Positions 47,954 through 55,340 of a stretch of DNA of 64,000 nt are shown here, piece by piece. Positions within the stretch are counted from its first letter, which is position 1; each line of letters starts with the position of its first letter. Made by a program: the position numbers and the translations under genes. The notes below the pieces were generated by a model. It searched no databases, was not told the origin of the DNA, and worked only from the letters and a program-made list of their open reading frames with translations. Origin of the DNA: Streptomyces sp. HUAS MG91 (GTDB lineage: Bacteria > Actinomycetota > Actinomycetes > Streptomycetales > Streptomycetaceae); NCBI RefSeq assembly GCF_040529335.1, contig NZ_CP159534.1, positions 7,440,001 to 7,504,000 of the forward strand, read 5' to 3'.

Positions 47954-48451
47954 ATGCCCCGACATCTTCCTCCCCGCCGTCCCGAACAGGTGGCTCACAC
48001 CGCGAGCCGCGCGGCCGAGCTGCTCGAGGTGCTCTGGGGCCGGGGACAGGAGACCGCGCCGCCGGGGCCGCTCCCGCCGTCGCAGTTGCGGGCCCTGAAG
48101 GTGGTGGAGGAGCAGCGGAGCGTCAATCAGCGCATGCTGGGGGAAGCGCTGGGGACCGGTCCGTCCTCCGTGAGCCGTCTGTGTGACCGGCTGGAGGCCG
48201 CCGGTCTGCTGGAGCGGATTCCCAGCGCGACGAGCCGGCGCGAGGTCGAGCTGACCCTGAGCCCACAGGGCGCGAGGGTGCTGGAGGAACTGCGCCTGGC
48301 GCGCATGCGTGAGTTCGAGGCGGTGCTGCGGGCCATGGCGCCTGCCGATCTCGGCGCCCTGTCCGAGGGGCTGGAGAAGCTGCGGCAGGCGGCGGCCGAG
48401 CGCATCGGCCTGGCCCGGGCGGAGGACGGGAACTCCTCGGCGATCGCCTGA
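47954..48451 (+). CDS. MarR family regulator (first copy)
   Basis: The 165-residue winged helix reads LPPSQLRALKVVEEQRSVNQRMLGEALGTGPSSVSRLCDRLEAAGLLERIPSATSRREVELTLSPQG (about 41-107, shown in part), with flanking dimerization helices. It closely resembles the second MarR at 49946-50443 (SRLCDRLEAAG shared). It is followed on the same strand by a PP2C phosphatase, with a 10-bp palindrome between them that it may bind. Confidence 0.9.
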   Translation: MPRHLPPRRPEQVAHTASRAAELLEVLWGRGQETAPPGPLPPSQLRALKVVEEQRSVNQRMLGEALGTGPSSVSRLCDRLEAAGLLERIPSATSRREVELTLSPQGARVLEELRLARMREFEAVLRAMAPADLGALSEGLEKLRQAAAERIGLARAEDGNSSAIA

Positions 48452-48631: not shown

Positions 48632-48662
48632 TTGCATCCCGACAATATTTGCCGGGATGCAA
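48632..48662. promoter_or_regulatory. Perfect 10-bp inverted repeat before the PP2C gene
   Basis: TTGCATCCCG (48632-48641) and CGGGATGCAA (48653-48662) are separated by 11 A/T-rich bases (ACAATATTTGC). The site lies 75 bases before GTG 48737 and 181 bases after the MarR gene. Size and symmetry fit a dimeric regulator's operator, most simply the adjacent MarR protein. Confidence 0.6.
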
Positions 48663-48736
48663 TGATTCTGTTCGGCCGTTCGGCCTGATCCCCCGACCAT
48701 CGCTGAGCTGTGCTCGCACCACCGACGAAGGCTGCC

Positions 48737-49930
48737 GTGACTAACTTCCTGGCCGTGGAACGCGCGCTGCGCACCGCCGCGCCGTACGACCTCCTTCCGG
48801 CGGCGCGGGCCGCGCTGGCCGAGCACTACGGGGCGGTGCAGGTCGAACTGCTGCTCGCCGACTACAGCACCAAGGTGCTCCAGTCCGTCGCCGACGGCCG
48901 GACCGAACCCCGGCAGGTGCCGATCAAGGGCAGCCCGCAGGGGCGCGCCTTCGACAGCCGCGAGCGCGTCCAGGTGGTCGGGCACCAGGAGTGCGTCGAC
49001 CTCTACGTGCCGGTGACCGCGCACGGGGACCGGCTCGGGATCCTGTCCGTGCGGCTGCCCGTCCGGCCCGCCGAGGAGAAGGTCGCGCCGCAGGTGCTCG
49101 ACGAGATCACCGCGATCGCCGACATCGTCGGGCACGAGATCCTCGTCGCGGAACGCGACACGGACGTCTACCTCCAGGCCCGCCGCGCCAGCCGCCTCAC
49201 GCTCGCCGCGGAGGTGCAGTGGCACCTCCTTCCCGGCCGTGCCTGCGCCCGCAAGGAGTACGAGATCGGGGCTCAGCTGGAGCCCGCGTACGCCATCTAC
49301 GGCGACAACTTCGACTGGGCGGAGACCGCGAGCACGCTCACCCTCAGCATCACCAACGGCATGGGTGAGGGCATCCAGGCCGCGCTGCTGACGAGCCTGG
49401 CCGTCAACGCCCTGCGCAACGCCCGTCGGGCGGGCATCGGCATCGCGGACCAGGCGGCGCTGGCCGACCAGGCGCTGTTCGCCCAGTACCGCGGCGAGGA
49501 GTACGTCGCCACGCTCCTGCTCTCCTTCGACCTGGACACCGGCCGCGTCCAGGTCGTCGACGGGGGCTCTCCCCAGCTGTGGCGCCACCGGGACAGGACG
49601 GTGGAGCACATCGAGTTCGACGCGCAGATGCCGCTGGGCATGTTCGAGGAGACCGACTACGTCACGCAGGACTTCCGGGTGGTGCCGGGGGACCGCCTGA
49701 TCTTCGTCAGCGACGGGGTCTTCGCCGCGCTCTCCGACAAGGGCGAGACCTTCGGCGAGAAGATGCTGGCCCGCGCGATCCAGGCGGCCCGGCTGCTGCC
49801 CGCCGCCGCGGTGCCCCGTGCGATCCTCCAGGACCTGTCCGCGTATCTGGATCAGGGGGCGGGCCCAGAGGTCGCCGACGACGCGCTGGTGCTCTGCCTG
49901 GACTGGTTCGGCCGCGACGTCCGGTCCTGA
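48737..49930 (+). CDS. SpoIIE/PP2C-type phosphatase with GAF-like sensor
   Basis: The 397-residue protein has an N-terminal GAF-like sensor region (YDLLPAARAALAEHYGAVQV, about 10-150), the linker ASRLTLAAEVQWHLLPG and a SpoIIE/RsbU-like PP2C domain (YGDNFDW metal Asp, DGGSPQLWRH, DRLIFVSDGVFAA, VADDALVLCLDW). At the usual metal-ligand motif DxMGxG it has TNGMGEG, an Asn for Asp, so activity may be altered. GTG 48737 is chosen as start (GTG 48710 also possible). RsbU-like enzymes dephosphorylate STAS antagonists. Confidence 0.88.
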   Translation: MTNFLAVERALRTAAPYDLLPAARAALAEHYGAVQVELLLADYSTKVLQSVADGRTEPRQVPIKGSPQGRAFDSRERVQVVGHQECVDLYVPVTAHGDRLGILSVRLPVRPAEEKVAPQVLDEITAIADIVGHEILVAERDTDVYLQARRASRLTLAAEVQWHLLPGRACARKEYEIGAQLEPAYAIYGDNFDWAETASTLTLSITNGMGEGIQAALLTSLAVNALRNARRAGIGIADQAALADQALFAQYRGEEYVATLLLSFDLDTGRVQVVDGGSPQLWRHRDRTVEHIEFDAQMPLGMFEETDYVTQDFRVVPGDRLIFVSDGVFAALSDKGETFGEKMLARAIQAARLLPAAAVPRAILQDLSAYLDQGAGPEVADDALVLCLDWFGRDVRS

Positions 49931-49945: not shown

Positions 49946-50443
49946 TCAGGGGCGGCGCGGTTCGTCGGGTTCGGCCGCGCGCGACGCGGCGGCGAAAGCG
50001 GTCAGCCCGCTCAGCAGCTGCCCGCGCGTGTCGCTCGACATGAGGTCGAGCACCTCGCGGAGCAGGAGTTCCCGCCGGGCCGACACGGCGTCGAGCGCGT
50101 CCTGTCCGCGCCGGGTCAGGGCGAGGCGGATCGTGCGCCGGTTCGTCGGCTGGGGTTCCCGCCGGATCATGCCGGCCGCTTCGAGCCGGTCGCACAGCCG
50201 GCTGGCGGCCGACGGTGCGGTGCCGACCGCGCCGGCCAGCGCGCCCAGGGTGAGGCCCGGCGCGGTCCTGACGGCGTGCAGGGCGTGCAGTTGCAGGGCG
50301 GAGAGCTGCGGGGTGCCGGTCCTGGCCGTGCGTGTCCACAGAGCCACGAGTGTGTCGACTGCCGCGGCCGTGTCCGCGGGCAGGGAGGAGCGGGGATCCT
50401 CCGGTGGGCCGATGTGGTCGGTGCGACCGTCACCGTCTTCCAT
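49946..50443 (-). CDS. MarR family regulator (second copy)
   Basis: The 165-residue winged helix reads LSALQLHALHAVRTAPGLTLGALAGAVGTAPSAASRLCDRLEAAGMIRREPQPTNRRTIRLALTRRG (about 45-112, shown in part). It is a paralogue of the MarR at 47954. It is divergent from the PAS-GAF-PP2C gene, with a palindrome in the shared intergenic region, so it is well placed to control the whole downstream stress cascade. Start is ATG 50443. Confidence 0.9.
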   Translation of the reverse strand: MEDGDGRTDHIGPPEDPRSSLPADTAAAVDTLVALWTRTARTGTPQLSALQLHALHAVRTAPGLTLGALAGAVGTAPSAASRLCDRLEAAGMIRREPQPTNRRTIRLALTRRGQDALDAVSARRELLLREVLDLMSSDTRGQLLSGLTAFAAASRAAEPDEPRRP

Positions 50444-50822
50444 GAGATGAAGTGCACCTCTCGGGGCTGAGGCTGTCGGTGCGGGTATGTCACGTGTTCC
50501 CGATCCACGGGATATATCCGTCTGGCGGCGTGACCATATGGGGATGGTTGTGAAGGTTTGGGAGATATCGGCCGATCGCGCGGGGGTTTCGCGCGTCGTG
50601 AGCCGTTGCGCATAGAAACGCTCGGCCCTGGTACCCGGTCCCGCGATCGGTTCCGGCGGCGGCATGGTTGCCGCGAGGCCCTTGATCGTGCGACTGTTGC
50701 CCTATGGCAACTATGTTGGTTCGTAAGGATCAAGGAGCAGCCTAGGTCAGTTGTCCAACGTTGTTAACTGCCCTAGACCCCAACGAAGGGTGGTGGGGGC
50801 CGCGCTCTGCGGGTCCCGTGCG
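50444..50822. promoter_or_regulatory. Divergent control region of the partner-switching operon
   Basis: This 379-base region between the MarR gene and the PAS-GAF-PP2C gene is A/T-richer than neighbours (for example GATATATCCG near 50511 and GTGACCATATGG near 50529). It contains the palindrome at 50696-50711 and a further CAGTTG...AACTG near 50747-50769. No gene is supported. Promoters for both directions must lie here. Confidence 0.55.
50696..50711. promoter_or_regulatory. GTTGCC-CTAT-GGCAAC inverted repeat
   Basis: GTTGCC (50696-50701) and GGCAAC (50706-50711) form a perfect 6-bp inverted repeat with a 4-base spacer, 112 bases before the PP2C start. Another GTTGCC lies at about 50667. This form fits a MarR-type operator and the adjacent divergent MarR gene. 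Confidence 0.55.
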
Positions 50823-52505
50823 ATGAAAACCCCAATGGAGCCGATCGGCTCCCGAAGTGCCCGCCCCGCGGCCGGTCCCGCCGGCCGCAGCATCCCGTAC
50901 CCGTCGGTCACGGTGGACCGAAGGGGCCGCGTACTGTCCTGCAACGACCGGGCCGGTGCTCTCCTGGAGAGGGTACGGGCCGGGGCGCTGCTGTCGGACG
51001 TGGCGCCTTCCTGGCTGGCCGACGCGCACGCCGAGGCCCTGCGCGCCGTCGGCGGCGACGGCCCGACCCCGGTCGAGGCCGCCCGCGGCCCGATCGGCGA
51101 GGCGACGGTGGACGCGTTCCCCAGCCGCACCGCCGACGGCTCCGTGGCGTGGTGGCTGGTCGACGACAGCGATCTGCGCGGCGTACGCGACGAGCTGGCC
51201 GGTGAGCGGGACCGCTCACGAGTTCTCCAGGAGATCTCCGGCGAACTCCTGGCGTCCCTGAACGTGGACCGATGCATGGAGGTGACCGCTCGTATGGCCG
51301 CGCAGCACCTCGCGGACGCGGCGGTCATCGTCGGCGTCCGGGCCGGCCGGCTCTACCCCGTGACCCGCTGTGTCACCGGCGGACCGGTGGAGCAGGAGAA
51401 GATCGCGGTGGACCCGGACAGCATGCCGGGACTCCCGGAGGCCCTCGCGGGCTTCCCTCCCGTGCCCTCGCGCTGGATCGACCCGGCGCAGGTCCCGGAC
51501 TGGGCGGTCCCGCGCCAGTTCACGGAAGGGGGCGCGGAGATCGGCTCCGTCGTGGTGGTGCCGCTGCCCGGGCACGGCGTGCCGGCCGGTGCCATCGTGC
51601 TGCTGCGGCAGTCCGAGGAAGCCGCGTTCACCGAGGCCGAGGAGGCCTTCGCCCGGCTCTTCGCCGCCCGCGCCGGTGTGGCCCTGTCCGCGGCGCGGAT
51701 CTACGCCGAGCAGTCGCACATCACCGACGTCCTGATGCGGGAACTGCTGCCGCCGGTCCTCGAGGGCGTGCACGGCATCGACTTCTCCGGCCGCTACCGT
51801 GCCGCCACCGCCACCGAGCGGGTCGGCGGCGACTTCTACGACGTCCACCCCGCCGAGAGCGCGGACGCGGAGACCTTCGCGGTCCTGGGCGACGTGTGCG
51901 GCAAGGGACTCGAGGCGGCCGTGCTGACCGGCAAGATCCGCAACACCATCGAGGCACTGCTGCCGTTCGCCGCCGACCACCTCAAGCTGCTCACGCTGCT
52001 GAACAACGCGCTGCTGTCCTCGCACCACACGCGCTTCGCGACCCTCGCCCTGGCGTCCGTGCGGCGGGACGGGAACCGGCTGCGCCTGCGGGTGTCCAGC
52101 GCCGGTCACCCCACGCCGCTGATCCTGCGCGCCGACGGGCGGGTCGAGGAGGCGGACACCAAGGGAGTCCTGATCGGCGCGCTCCCCACCGACCTGCTGA
52201 AGATCACCACGGCATCCGTCGACCTCGCGCCGGGCGAGACCTGCCTGCTCTACTCCGACGGCATCACCGAGGCCCGCGGCGGCCCGCTCGGCGACGTCCT
52301 GTTCGGCGAGGAGCGCCTGCACCACACGCTGGCCGAGTGCGCCGGAATGCCCGCCGAGGCGGTCACCGAACGGGTGCAGATGGTCGCGACCCAGTGGGCC
52401 GACGGCGTCCCGCACGACGACATGGCGCTGCTGTCCATCACCGCGCCCCGCAGGAACCATCTCGCGGCCGTGGACGGGCACACTCGGGGCAGGTTCACTC
52501 CATGA
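50823..52505 (+). CDS. PAS-GAF-SpoIIE (RsbU-like) protein phosphatase
   Basis: The 560-residue protein has a PAS-like domain (about 25-125, YPSVTVDRRGRVLSCNDRAG), a GAF domain (about 150-300, HLADAAVIVGVRAGRLYPVT, SEEAAFTEAEEAFARLFAAR) and a full PP2C domain. The metal Asp residues are in ATERVGGDFYDV, VLGDVCGKGLEAA, LLYSDGITEA and PHDDMALLSI. It should dephosphorylate a STAS antagonist, and one is encoded two genes downstream. ATG 50823 is chosen; ATG 50835 is also possible. Its stop overlaps the start of the B12-binding gene. Confidence 0.92.
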   Translation: MKTPMEPIGSRSARPAAGPAGRSIPYPSVTVDRRGRVLSCNDRAGALLERVRAGALLSDVAPSWLADAHAEALRAVGGDGPTPVEAARGPIGEATVDAFPSRTADGSVAWWLVDDSDLRGVRDELAGERDRSRVLQEISGELLASLNVDRCMEVTARMAAQHLADAAVIVGVRAGRLYPVTRCVTGGPVEQEKIAVDPDSMPGLPEALAGFPPVPSRWIDPAQVPDWAVPRQFTEGGAEIGSVVVVPLPGHGVPAGAIVLLRQSEEAAFTEAEEAFARLFAARAGVALSAARIYAEQSHITDVLMRELLPPVLEGVHGIDFSGRYRAATATERVGGDFYDVHPAESADAETFAVLGDVCGKGLEAAVLTGKIRNTIEALLPFAADHLKLLTLLNNALLSSHHTRFATLALASVRRDGNRLRLRVSSAGHPTPLILRADGRVEEADTKGVLIGALPTDLLKITTASVDLAPGETCLLYSDGITEARGGPLGDVLFGEERLHHTLAECAGMPAEAVTERVQMVATQWADGVPHDDMALLSITAPRRNHLAAVDGHTRGRFTP

Positions 52506-53626
52506 CCACACAGAACAACACCCGCGCAAGCGTGGCCGAACCCGGCCTGGAGGAACTGCGCGAGCAGCTGTGGCGGGCGGCGATCGACTGCGACGAGACG
52601 CACGCGATCGCCCTGGTGCGCCACGCCGTGGGCCCGGACACCTCACCGCAGGTGCGGGCCGCGGCGGAGCGGACCCTGCTGGAGCTGATCGCACCGGTGC
52701 AGGAGCGCGTCGGCGTGCAATGGGCGGCCAACACCATCACCGTGGCGCAGGAACACGCGGCCACCGCGATCAACGAGCGGTGCATCTCCGCCGTCGCCGA
52801 CGTGGCCGCGTCCGCACCCGTCCCCGCGCACGCCGCCACGGAACCGCTGGGCCGGGTGACCGTCGCCTGCGTGGACGGCGAGTGGCACGCCCTGCCCGCC
52901 CGCCTGGTCACCGAGGTGCTGCGGCTGCGCGGCTGGCACGTGGACTACCTGGGCGCGCAGGTGCCGACCGAGCACCTGATCGCCCACCTCCACCAGCGGA
53001 AGGCCGAAGCCGTCCTGCTGTCCTCGTCGATCCCCTCGCACCTGCCCACCGCCCACACCGCGATCAGCGCCTGCCAGGCGGCGGGCGTCCCGGTCGTCGC
53101 GGGCGGCGCCGCGTTCGGCCCCGGAGGGCGCTATGCCCGCCGGATGCAGGCCGCCTGGGCCCCGGACGCCGTCGGCGCGCACACCCTGCTGACGCGGGGA
53201 CTCGACCGGCCCACCGCGGACGCGGCCCGGCTGCCCGACCTGGACCTGCCCCACCTCAACGACCAGGAGTACACCCTGGTCAGACAGTCGAAGCGGCAAC
53301 TGGTCAAGCAGACGCTCACCGACGTCGAGGACGCGTTCCCGCCGATGCGCGCCTACAGCGCGTACCAACGCGAGCGCACCGCCGAGGACATCGACCACAT
53401 CGTCACCTACCTGGCCACCGCCGTGTACGTCGACGACGCCGAGCTGTTCACCACCTTCGTCGGGTGGACCGCCGGCATCCTCCAGGCCCGCGGCGTCCCG
53501 CCGCGCAGCCTGCTGCCCGCACTCGACTCCCTGCGCCACCAGTTGAAGGATTTCCCGCGCGCCGGCCACATCCTCACCGCGGCGCGCGATGCCCTGACCG
53601 TTCCCGGACCCGGACAGCCCGCATGA
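52502..53626 (+). CDS. Cobalamin-binding protein with CarH-like photoreceptor motif
   Basis: The 374-residue protein has a helical cap (about 15-105) containing W74-x9-E84-H85, the signature of CarH/LitR adenosylcobalamin light sensors. A B12-binding Rossmann domain (about 115-235) follows, with a lower-ligand region DGEWHALPARLV (ExH, His129), LGAQVP, AVLLSSSIPS and VVAGGAAFG. A C-terminal helical domain (DIDHIVTYLATAVYVDDAEL, GWTAGILQARGVPPRSL) resembles helical sensor domains of stress regulators. There is no DNA-binding MerR domain, unlike CarH. ATGA overlaps on both sides tie it to the phosphatase and STAS genes. Confidence 0.88.
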   Translation: MTTQNNTRASVAEPGLEELREQLWRAAIDCDETHAIALVRHAVGPDTSPQVRAAAERTLLELIAPVQERVGVQWAANTITVAQEHAATAINERCISAVADVAASAPVPAHAATEPLGRVTVACVDGEWHALPARLVTEVLRLRGWHVDYLGAQVPTEHLIAHLHQRKAEAVLLSSSIPSHLPTAHTAISACQAAGVPVVAGGAAFGPGGRYARRMQAAWAPDAVGAHTLLTRGLDRPTADAARLPDLDLPHLNDQEYTLVRQSKRQLVKQTLTDVEDAFPPMRAYSAYQRERTAEDIDHIVTYLATAVYVDDAELFTTFVGWTAGILQARGVPPRSLLPALDSLRHQLKDFPRAGHILTAARDALTVPGPGQPA

Positions 53627-54042
53627 CCGCCGCCTACGCCCCCTTCCACCTCGCCGTCGCCGGCCTGCGCGACGGCGTACTGACCCTCGTCCTGGTCGGA
53701 GCGCTCGACTACGACACCAGCGACTCCTTCACCCTGCAGACCGGCCGGGTCCTCGACGAGCACCCCGCGGCGCGCGTGCTCCGGCTGGACTGCGCGGGCC
53801 TGCTCGGCATCGACTCCATGGGCCTGTCCACCCTGCTCGCCCTGCGCCGCAGGCTCGACGGGGCCGGCATGGCCCTGCACCTCACCGCACGCCCCCGGAA
53901 CCTGGAACGGCTGCTGACCATCACGGGGACCCACGATTACCTCATCGGTGAACCGGCGTCACCGCAGACCGAACAGGAGCCCGCCGGCGCCGAGTCCCGG
54001 CCGGCTCCGCTGGAGGGCGCGCCACCGCAGAGCGGCAGATGA
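53623..54042 (+). CDS. STAS domain anti-sigma-factor antagonist (RsbV-like)
   Basis: The 139-residue protein reads FHLAVAGLRDGVLTLVLVGALDYDTS, ARVLRLDCAGLLGIDSMGLSTLLALRRRL and MALHLTARPRNLERLLTITG. The phosphorylatable Ser is expected at IDS (Ser65). Unphosphorylated STAS antagonists release sigma factors by binding their anti-sigma kinase. A Glu/Pro/Ala-rich tail of about 25 residues is extra. It overlaps the B12-binding gene by ATGA and precedes the sigma gene by 70 bases. Confidence 0.92.
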   Translation: MTAAYAPFHLAVAGLRDGVLTLVLVGALDYDTSDSFTLQTGRVLDEHPAARVLRLDCAGLLGIDSMGLSTLLALRRRLDGAGMALHLTARPRNLERLLTITGTHDYLIGEPASPQTEQEPAGAESRPAPLEGAPPQSGR

Positions 54043-54112
54043 CCACGAGGACCGGCGCGGAGCGTTCCACGCCGCACACGACATCAGAGCACCAGTTCAC
54101 AGAGGCGGACAC

Positions 54113-54982
54113 ATGATCAGCGTGACCGAACAGGAACACACCCGCGGCATGGACGCGGAGGCCGAGGAGAGCCTGGTCACCCGCGCTTGTGCGGATCCGT
54201 CGTCGATAGCGCCGAAGGACGCCCGGGGCGTCGTTCGGGAGCTCTTCCACCGGTTCGCCGAACTCGAGGAGGGCACGGCCGAGTACAGCTATGTGCGCAA
54301 GGTCCTCATCGAGGTGAACCTCTCTCTCGTGCAGTACGTGGCGACCCGCTTCAGACACCGCGGGGCGCAGCAGATGGACGACATCACCCAGGTCGGAACG
54401 ATCGGTCTGATCAAGGCGATCGACCGCTTCGAACTGTCCCGGGAGGTCGAGTTCACCTCCTTCGCCATCCCCTACATCACCGGCGAGATCAAGCGGTTCT
54501 TCCGCGACACGTCGTGGGCCGTGCACGTGCCCCGCCGGCTCCAGGAGGCCCGGCTCGAACTGTCCAGGGCCACCGAGGAGTTGCGCACCCGCCTGGGCCG
54601 GCTGCCGTCGACGGCCGAGCTTGCGGAGCTGATGCAGCTGGAACCGGCGGAGGTCGCCGAGGTCCAGAAGGCGGCCAACGGCTACAACGCCGTCTCGCTG
54701 GACGCCACCATCAGCGGACCCGACGACCGGACGGAGACCCTGCTGGCCGACTTCGTCGGCGTCGACGAGGAGCGCTTCGAACTCGTCGAGAACTTCCACT
54801 CCCTGGCCCCGCTCATCGCCGAACTGGGCGACCGCGAACGGCGCCTGATCCATCTGCGCTTCGTCGAGGAGCGGACACAGCGCGAGATCGCCGACGACAT
54901 CGGCTGCTCGCAGATGCACGTGTCCCGGCTGATCACCCAGGTGATGGAGCGGCTCCGGGCCGGTCTGATGACGACCCAGTAG
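54113..54982 (+). CDS. SigB/SigF-type RNA polymerase sigma factor
   Basis: The 289-residue protein has regions 2 (YVATRFRHRGAQQMDDITQVGTIGLIKAIDRFELSREVEFTSFAIPYITGEIKRFFRD, about 80-136, shown in part), 3 (VHVPRRLQEARLELSRATEEL) and 4 (LGDRERRLIHLRFVEERTQREIADDIGCSQMHVSRLI). This is the Sig-B/F/G group controlled by partner switching. Start is ATG 54113, with a possible second start at codon 13. It is the output of the upstream phosphatase/B12/STAS cascade. No anti-sigma kinase gene is adjacent. Confidence 0.93.
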   Translation: MISVTEQEHTRGMDAEAEESLVTRACADPSSIAPKDARGVVRELFHRFAELEEGTAEYSYVRKVLIEVNLSLVQYVATRFRHRGAQQMDDITQVGTIGLIKAIDRFELSREVEFTSFAIPYITGEIKRFFRDTSWAVHVPRRLQEARLELSRATEELRTRLGRLPSTAELAELMQLEPAEVAEVQKAANGYNAVSLDATISGPDDRTETLLADFVGVDEERFELVENFHSLAPLIAELGDRERRLIHLRFVEERTQREIADDIGCSQMHVSRLITQVMERLRAGLMTTQ

Positions 54983-55058
54983 GCCCCGCGGCCCCGGTGA
55001 CCGCCGTCGGCGGCGAGCTGATCGGCGTAGAAGCCGCGAGCGGGGGCAACAGGGGCAT

Positions 55059-55340
55059 GTGGAGTGGGAAGAGCAAGCGAGCTGCTGCGCGGTGGATCCC
55101 GACGAGATGTTTCTCGAGGGCGCCGCGCAGTCGCACGCCAAGAGCATCTGCAAGCCGTGCCCCGTGCGCACCGAGTGCCTTGCCCATGCCCTGGACCAGC
55201 GCATCCAGTACGGGCTGTGGGGCGGCATGACGGAGCGCGAGCGCCGCGCACTCCTGCGGCGCCGGCCCGACGTCGACTCCTGGGCAGAGCTGCTGGAGAC
55301 CGCGCGACGACACCACGCGCGAACGGCCGTGGACGCCTAG
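55059..55340 (+). CDS. WhiB family iron-sulfur regulator
   Basis: The 93-residue protein carries the four-Cys [4Fe-4S] set: C10 (preceded by C9), C31, C34 and C40 in SCCAVDPDEMF and ICKPCPVRTECLAHAL. The WhiB turn motif is YGLWGGMTERERR, with a basic tail RRALLRRRP. WhiB proteins sense redox/NO and bind the principal sigma factor. The start is GTG 55059. It follows the sigma gene by 76 bases and may be co-transcribed. Confidence 0.93.
   Translation: MEWEEQASCCAVDPDEMFLEGAAQSHAKSICKPCPVRTECLAHALDQRIQYGLWGGMTERERRALLRRRPDVDSWAELLETARRHHARTAVDA

Follow-up and report, generated by a model that had tools for sequence, protein, structure and literature searches.

Organization of the locus

The 64,000-nucleotide stretch of Streptomyces sp. 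HUAS MG91 DNA analyzed here (the window; C1:7440001-7504000 of an 8.6 Mb genome in two contigs) carries a block of five genes with a stand-alone photocobilin, a cobalamin-binding photoreceptor, as its second member. The block is probably an operon that feeds light into a partner-switching cascade. Its genes and the features immediately upstream are the following, in window positions:

50823-52505, + strand: PP2C phosphatase gene, (PAS-like)-GAF-SpoIIE/PP2C, 560 amino acids
52502-53626, + strand: photocobilin gene, stand-alone, 374 amino acids
53623-54042, + strand: STAS anti-sigma antagonist gene, 139 amino acids, D64-S65 phospho-site motif
54113-54982, + strand: SigB/F/G-type sigma factor gene, 289 amino acids
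55059-55340, + strand: WhiB-family gene, 93 amino acids (Pfam Whib, 83.5 bits)
50697-50710, no strand assigned: palindrome TTGCC-CTAT-GGCAA, 5' of the operon
49946-50665, - strand: MarR-family regulator gene, divergent from the operon (Pfam MarR, 46.7 bits; a mechanical open reading frame with an approximate start)

The phosphatase and photocobilin genes, and likewise the photocobilin and STAS genes, meet in ATGA overlaps. An earlier sequence-only reading had placed all five genes at coordinates that proved correct, and its partner-switching context is borne out by Pfam and NCBIfam matches to the SpoIIE, STAS and SigB-type sigma families. Its observation is thus confirmed; its interpretation is partly supported. 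Rfam gives nothing at the gathering threshold across the window.

The photocobilin protein

The photocobilin has two Pfam domains, B12-binding_2 and B12-binding, and folds into a four-helix cap, a Rossmann B12 domain and a C-terminal phycobiliprotein-like globin (residues about 250-366). These two domains are all that Pfam gives, in agreement with the reported lack of a DNA-binding domain. Membership in the CarH group is ruled out by that lack and by the NCBIfam CarH model, which gives 52 bits where its cut-off asks for 400. The top PDB matches are the structures of SasPcob from Saccharothrix syringae (8J2W, 8J2X). The sequence-only reading knew of no characterised example; SasPcob is one such relative, in a family characterised in 2024 (Zhang et al., PMC10979010).

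The cap residues W74, E84 and H85 (W74-x9-E84-H85) and the lower-ligand ExH motif (E127, H129), noted earlier as the residue set of an adenosylcobalamin (AdoCbl) light sensor, are all present and are invariant across a 36-sequence alignment. Among 183 aligned homologues the tryptophan is kept in 182, the glutamate and the cap histidine in 183 each, and the lower histidine in 182; this count and the photocobilin tree omit six short photocobilins (L103, L159, L161, L210, L227, L230). Another alignment had two loci without letters at the AdoCbl columns and lacked D270 in L156-L160.

The C-terminal domain had been described as an additional helical domain. It is helical and present, and the idea that it is an unknown domain is ruled out: sequence, key residues and a fold comparison of the model, which reveals five helices, identify the bilin-binding globin of photocobilins. 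Asp270 and Trp296, which contact biliverdin in SasPcob, correspond to D296 and W322, and the window protein holds all six AdoCbl-pocket and biliverdin residues, D296 and W322 among them. The aspartate is found in 169 and the tryptophan in 172 of the 183 homologues. The sensor is therefore probably dual-chromophore, binding both AdoCbl and biliverdin.

Nearest to the earlier view is a CarH-like sensor that uses B12 only, the C-terminal domain being structural and no bilin being bound in the cell. Some photocobilins do bind biliverdin weakly (AbDPcob, about 20% occupancy; PMC10979010), and the presence of heme oxygenase does not follow that of photocobilins in the genus (71 of 75 genomes with a photocobilin, 110 of 124 without). 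Such a sensor is nevertheless improbable in view of the retained aspartate and tryptophan, the phycobiliprotein fold and the heme oxygenase encoded in this genome, which has one gene for that enzyme and one for a cobalamin adenosyltransferase. So many genomes of the genus encode heme oxygenase that its co-occurrence is uninformative and was dropped as support for bilin binding.

It is less probable still that the protein senses the supply of cobalamin or the redox state rather than light. The fold family does include B12 carriers such as methionine synthase and corrinoid proteins, and the light response of the window protein is a prediction from its sequence. A supply sensor would have no obvious use for a bilin domain, and 182-183 of the 183 homologues retain the adenosyl-pocket residues (W, E-H).

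Phosphatase, antagonist and sigma factor

The phosphatase matches Pfam SpoIIE (140.7 bits) and GAF (29.9 bits), and the model of its phosphatase domain matches those of RsbU and SpoIIE. Residues D337, D357, D479, D532 and D533 are invariant in 26 sequences, and we take them to be the catalytic-type, metal-binding aspartates of the PP2C family. The proposed PAS-GAF-PP2C architecture stands for its last two elements. Pfam finds no PAS domain at E<=0.01; an N-terminal PAS domain is plausible from the model, in which an alpha/beta domain spans residues 28-114 or so. The modeled PAS-like/GAF half (residues 28-263) also resembles bacteriophytochrome photosensory modules weakly (TM 0.22-0.27).

In the STAS protein (Pfam, 47 bits) the serine that follows the aspartate in D64-S65 is kept in 19 of 20 aligned sequences. 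The sigma factor has Pfam regions 2, 3 and 4 and scores 274 bits with the NCBIfam SigB/F/G model TIGR02980 (cut-off 234).

Conservation of the gene linkage

Photocobilin matches were found in 75 of 199 genomes of the genus (E<=1e-20) and in 61 of 394 genomes, 24 of 137 genera, of the class (E<=1e-25). Loci from the genus (80), from other genera of the class (40) and from a named set (80, the best of at least 214 confirmed matches) make 201 together with the window. Removal of 12 duplicates leaves 189 distinct loci, a sample skewed to close relatives, whose counts are not frequencies over all photocobilins. Linkage was counted by profile searches; a rough gene caller overlooked the photocobilin gene in 26 of 81 loci.

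A PP2C-GAF gene lies directly 5' of the photocobilin gene, on the same strand, in 179 of the 189 distinct loci, and a STAS gene directly 3' of it in 130; the corresponding numbers for other genera are 32/40 and 15/40. Since SpoIIE domains over the cut-off number 34 in this genome, such adjacency is far above chance. The upstream phosphatase gene persists beside diverged photocobilins that lack a STAS neighbor (e.g. L153-L158). It is thus the constant partner, and the contact made by the photocobilin is placed at the phosphatase for this reason. One of the ten loci without the phosphatase gene, L219, begins 151 bases before the photocobilin.

This genome encodes three photocobilins, the other two being 72% and 68% identical to that of the window. 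The third copy (L086, G000:C1:2567416-2568480) has the PP2C gene and no STAS gene behind it; it belongs to a group (L086, L088, L090, L092, L236, L275) with neither STAS nor sigma genes nearby. In three loci of other genomes (L298, L260, L208) photocobilin or phosphatase-STAS units are repeated within a few kilobases.

Sigma factors and anti-sigma kinases

A SigB-type sigma gene lies within 5.5 kb of the photocobilin in 14 of the 189 loci. Among the six nearest photocobilins (L087, L234, L233, L235, L085, L237; 69-90% identity) five have one, and the next, L275 (68.8%), has none. The linked sigma factors fall mostly into one clade (12 sequences, support 0.98), together with five of the ten SigB/F/G sigma factors of this genome, the window's own being counted in both numbers; three linked sigma factors (L296, L230, L310) lie outside it.

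The full set of PP2C, photocobilin, STAS, kinase and SigB-type sigma genes occurs on one strand within 5.5 kb in eight of the 189 loci (L097, L122, L148, L230, L233, L235, L237, L301). Gene orders at these and related loci are:

L233 (Streptomyces sp. HmicA12): PP2C-photocobilin-STAS-STAS-kinase-kinase-sigma-MarR
L235 (S. indicus) and L237 (S. mesophilus): sigma-STAS-kinase-PP2C-photocobilin-STAS-kinase
L301 (S. diastatochromogenes): PP2C-photocobilin-STAS-kinase-STAS-sigma
Nocardia loci L253, L257, L258, L284, L295, L307 and L311: STAS-kinase-PP2C-photocobilin

The order found in the window, with a WhiB gene and no kinase gene, is common to L087 and L234 (Streptomyces sp. SID14478). These close relatives and the window are the only loci with a WhiB gene near the cassette.

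The sequence-only reading had light or B12 state gating the sigma factor through protein contacts. Of the arrangement behind this idea, the phosphatase-photocobilin pair and, in 130 loci, the STAS gene are conserved, whereas the sigma gene is close by in only 14. The first target of light is therefore most likely the phosphatase, and regulation of this enzyme by light is the most probable mechanism. The sensor might work as proposed and direct its output elsewhere, to other kinases and sigma factors or to a target that is not a sigma factor, the sigma-WhiB pair being a lineage-specific neighbor. The rarity of nearby sigma genes, the restriction of WhiB to three loci, the missing kinase and the four other SigB-type sigma factors of this genome in the same clade are all consistent with such an output. 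We nevertheless regard it as rather unlikely, given the sigma genes beside five of the six nearest relatives and the largely single clade of the linked sigma factors.

The absence of a kinase from the block, pointed out earlier, holds for the whole window: none of the 76 HATPase_c_2 matches in the genome (E<=0.001) lies inside it. A same-strand kinase gene is found within about 3 kb of the photocobilin in 37 of 189 loci. The first kinase of L233 matches one in this genome at C1:6744312 (57%) and the second matches three, at C1:197518 (57%), C1:6754198 (59%) and C1:6757226 (54%). All four are candidates for a borrowed kinase; C1:6754198 adjoins a sister sigma gene whose core region shares 77% identity with that of the window sigma gene.

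A putative operator upstream of the operon

The palindrome at 50697-50710 sits in the gap that separates the phosphatase gene from the divergent MarR gene. Exact TTGCC-N4-GGCAA is present twice in the complete genome, compared with 10 per strand for a reversed-pattern control; the second copy (L323) lies among open reading frames with no recognised link to the photocobilin system. Upstream of the phosphatase gene, scores of 9 or 10 out of 10 are reached in 38 of 79 Streptomyces loci versus 0.44% of 1580 control regions. Over 178 distinct loci the score is 10/10 in 34 and 9/10 in 27 (61 together), and 7 or less in 88; the other photocobilin operons of this genome score 8/10 (L085) and 7/10 (L086).

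Of 81 loci, 33 have a gene of the same MarR family as the divergent one no more than 5 kb away, and in several (e.g. L100, L106, L107, L119-L121) a MarR gene directly follows the STAS gene. Where a MarR gene lies within 5 kb, 37 of 49 loci score 9-10, as against 24 of the 129 loci that have none so close (Fisher p 2e-12, a value that ignores kinship). The palindrome is probably an operator, perhaps of the linked MarR-type regulator; as 24 loci carry it with no MarR gene near, the binder may be another protein.

A looser scan for SigB-type promoters gave nothing 5' of either the phosphatase gene or the sigma gene in L087, L234, L235, L237 and L085. In L233 both genes are preceded by one such match, and in L249, L148 and L301 one or two precede the sigma gene. 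As neither gene in the window has such a promoter, sigma autoregulation is unsupported there.

Two further genes lie beyond the MarR gene:

48710-49930, + strand: second SpoIIE-type phosphatase gene (Pfam SpoIIE, 125.6 bits)
47954-48451, + strand: second MarR-family regulator gene (Pfam MarR_2, 48.1 bits)

The family of this second phosphatase is a recurrent neighbor, near 24 of 81 loci. A 31-base palindrome (TTGCATCCCG ... CGGGATGCAA) at 48632-48662, 5' of the second phosphatase gene (48710), is possibly another operator.

Proposed pathway of light signaling

In SasPcob, AdoCbl is photolyzed by green light, or by red light via biliverdin; the dark dimer becomes a monomer, and the holo form, once illuminated, acts on a partner protein (PMC10979010). 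Its predicted partners include STAS and SpoIIE/PP2C proteins, as one sentence on a predicted interaction network states (PMC10979010). Together with the gene content, family membership, key residues, conserved linkage and palindrome established here, these properties suggest the following sequence of events, to which as a whole we assign a probability of about 0.68.

The window photocobilin would bind AdoCbl and probably also biliverdin. By analogy with SasPcob, green light directly, or red light through the bilin, would break the Co-C bond, and the dark dimer would fall apart into monomers. Again as in SasPcob, the photocobilin would act by protein contact, its direct target presumably being the GAF-PP2C phosphatase encoded upstream. 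The phosphatase would most likely be activated in the light, a sign guessed from AbDPcob and holo SasPcob. It would then dephosphorylate the STAS protein, which in this form would capture an anti-sigma kinase encoded elsewhere, possibly one of the four candidates. A SigB-type sigma factor would be freed, most likely the product of the neighboring gene, although this target is an inference from gene position. The MarR-type regulator probably controls the operon through TTGCC-N4-GGCAA.

Several observations weigh against this description. Ten of the 189 loci lack the upstream PP2C gene and 59 the downstream STAS gene; sigma genes are as rare as stated above, and even in a well-supported clade of 13 photocobilins, the window included, only six have one near. 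The window holds no HATPase_c_2 kinase. It contains no SigB-type promoter GTTT-N14-17-GGGWAW, and the looser scan gave none 5' of its phosphatase or sigma gene. Heme oxygenase does not track photocobilins, four of the genomes with a photocobilin lacking it. The sign of the response is also in question, because SasPcob showed opposite signs with and without biliverdin (Zhang et al., PMC10979010).

Relation to known systems

The block resembles the RsbU/RsbV/RsbW/SigB system in having a PP2C phosphatase, a STAS protein with a phospho-serine motif and a SigB-type sigma factor. It differs in having no kinase gene and in the insertion of the photocobilin gene between the phosphatase and STAS genes. 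SigB cascades that receive light through flavin (LOV) proteins are known; we know of none that does so through cobalamin.

CarH and LitR have a MerR DNA-binding domain, which is absent from the window protein; the latter adds the bilin-binding globin. A LitR-type open reading frame (MerR plus B12-like; L316:3326-4441, C1 about 8.291 Mb) was recognized by eye, with a weak B12-binding match. It adjoins ECF-sigma-like and photolyase-like open reading frames, also recognized by eye, and this appears to be a second, classical light locus in the genome.

AbDPcob (8J2Y) is a photocobilin fused to a diguanylate cyclase output and has a histidine in place of the biliverdin-binding aspartate (PMC10979010); the window protein stands alone and keeps the aspartate. 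For SasPcob, the accessible portions of the same paper describe no sigma gene, kinase or operator; the window operon adds sigma and WhiB genes. Zhang et al. call the function of stand-alone photocobilins less clear (PMC10979010).

In the literature found, only Zhang et al. 2024 joins photocobilins to partner switching, and the photoglobin paper (Schneider et al. 2022) may already cover the context. The link is unmentioned in the accessible parts of the SignatureFinder paper (PMC11796333) and of the phycobiliprotein paper (PMC10151467), and the parts of the literature on SCO7324-7327 that could be consulted contain no photocobilin link. What is new here is the phosphatase-photocobilin(-STAS) linkage over 189 loci, the eight complete sets, the operator-like palindrome and the kinase candidates.

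Implications

The sensor-phosphatase pairing, kept in many relatives, suggests a role for stand-alone photocobilins. Near-constant phosphatase linkage and the existence of some complete sets lead to a direct question, namely whether dephosphorylation of the STAS protein depends on light. The chances are about even that photocobilins in general are a two-chromophore (green/red) input of widespread actinobacterial partner switching, acting via a dedicated PP2C phosphatase, and that the lineage of the window drives its own SigB-type sigma factor and WhiB by means of a kinase that it shares with a sister sigma system. If this broader reading is true, it would provide the first case in which light sensed through cobalamin controls an alternative sigma factor via protein contacts and would give the stand-alone photocobilins a role. 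Should STAS dephosphorylation indeed depend on light, Streptomyces and its relatives would have a red and green light input to alternative sigma factors, in this genome beside the LitR-type repressor.

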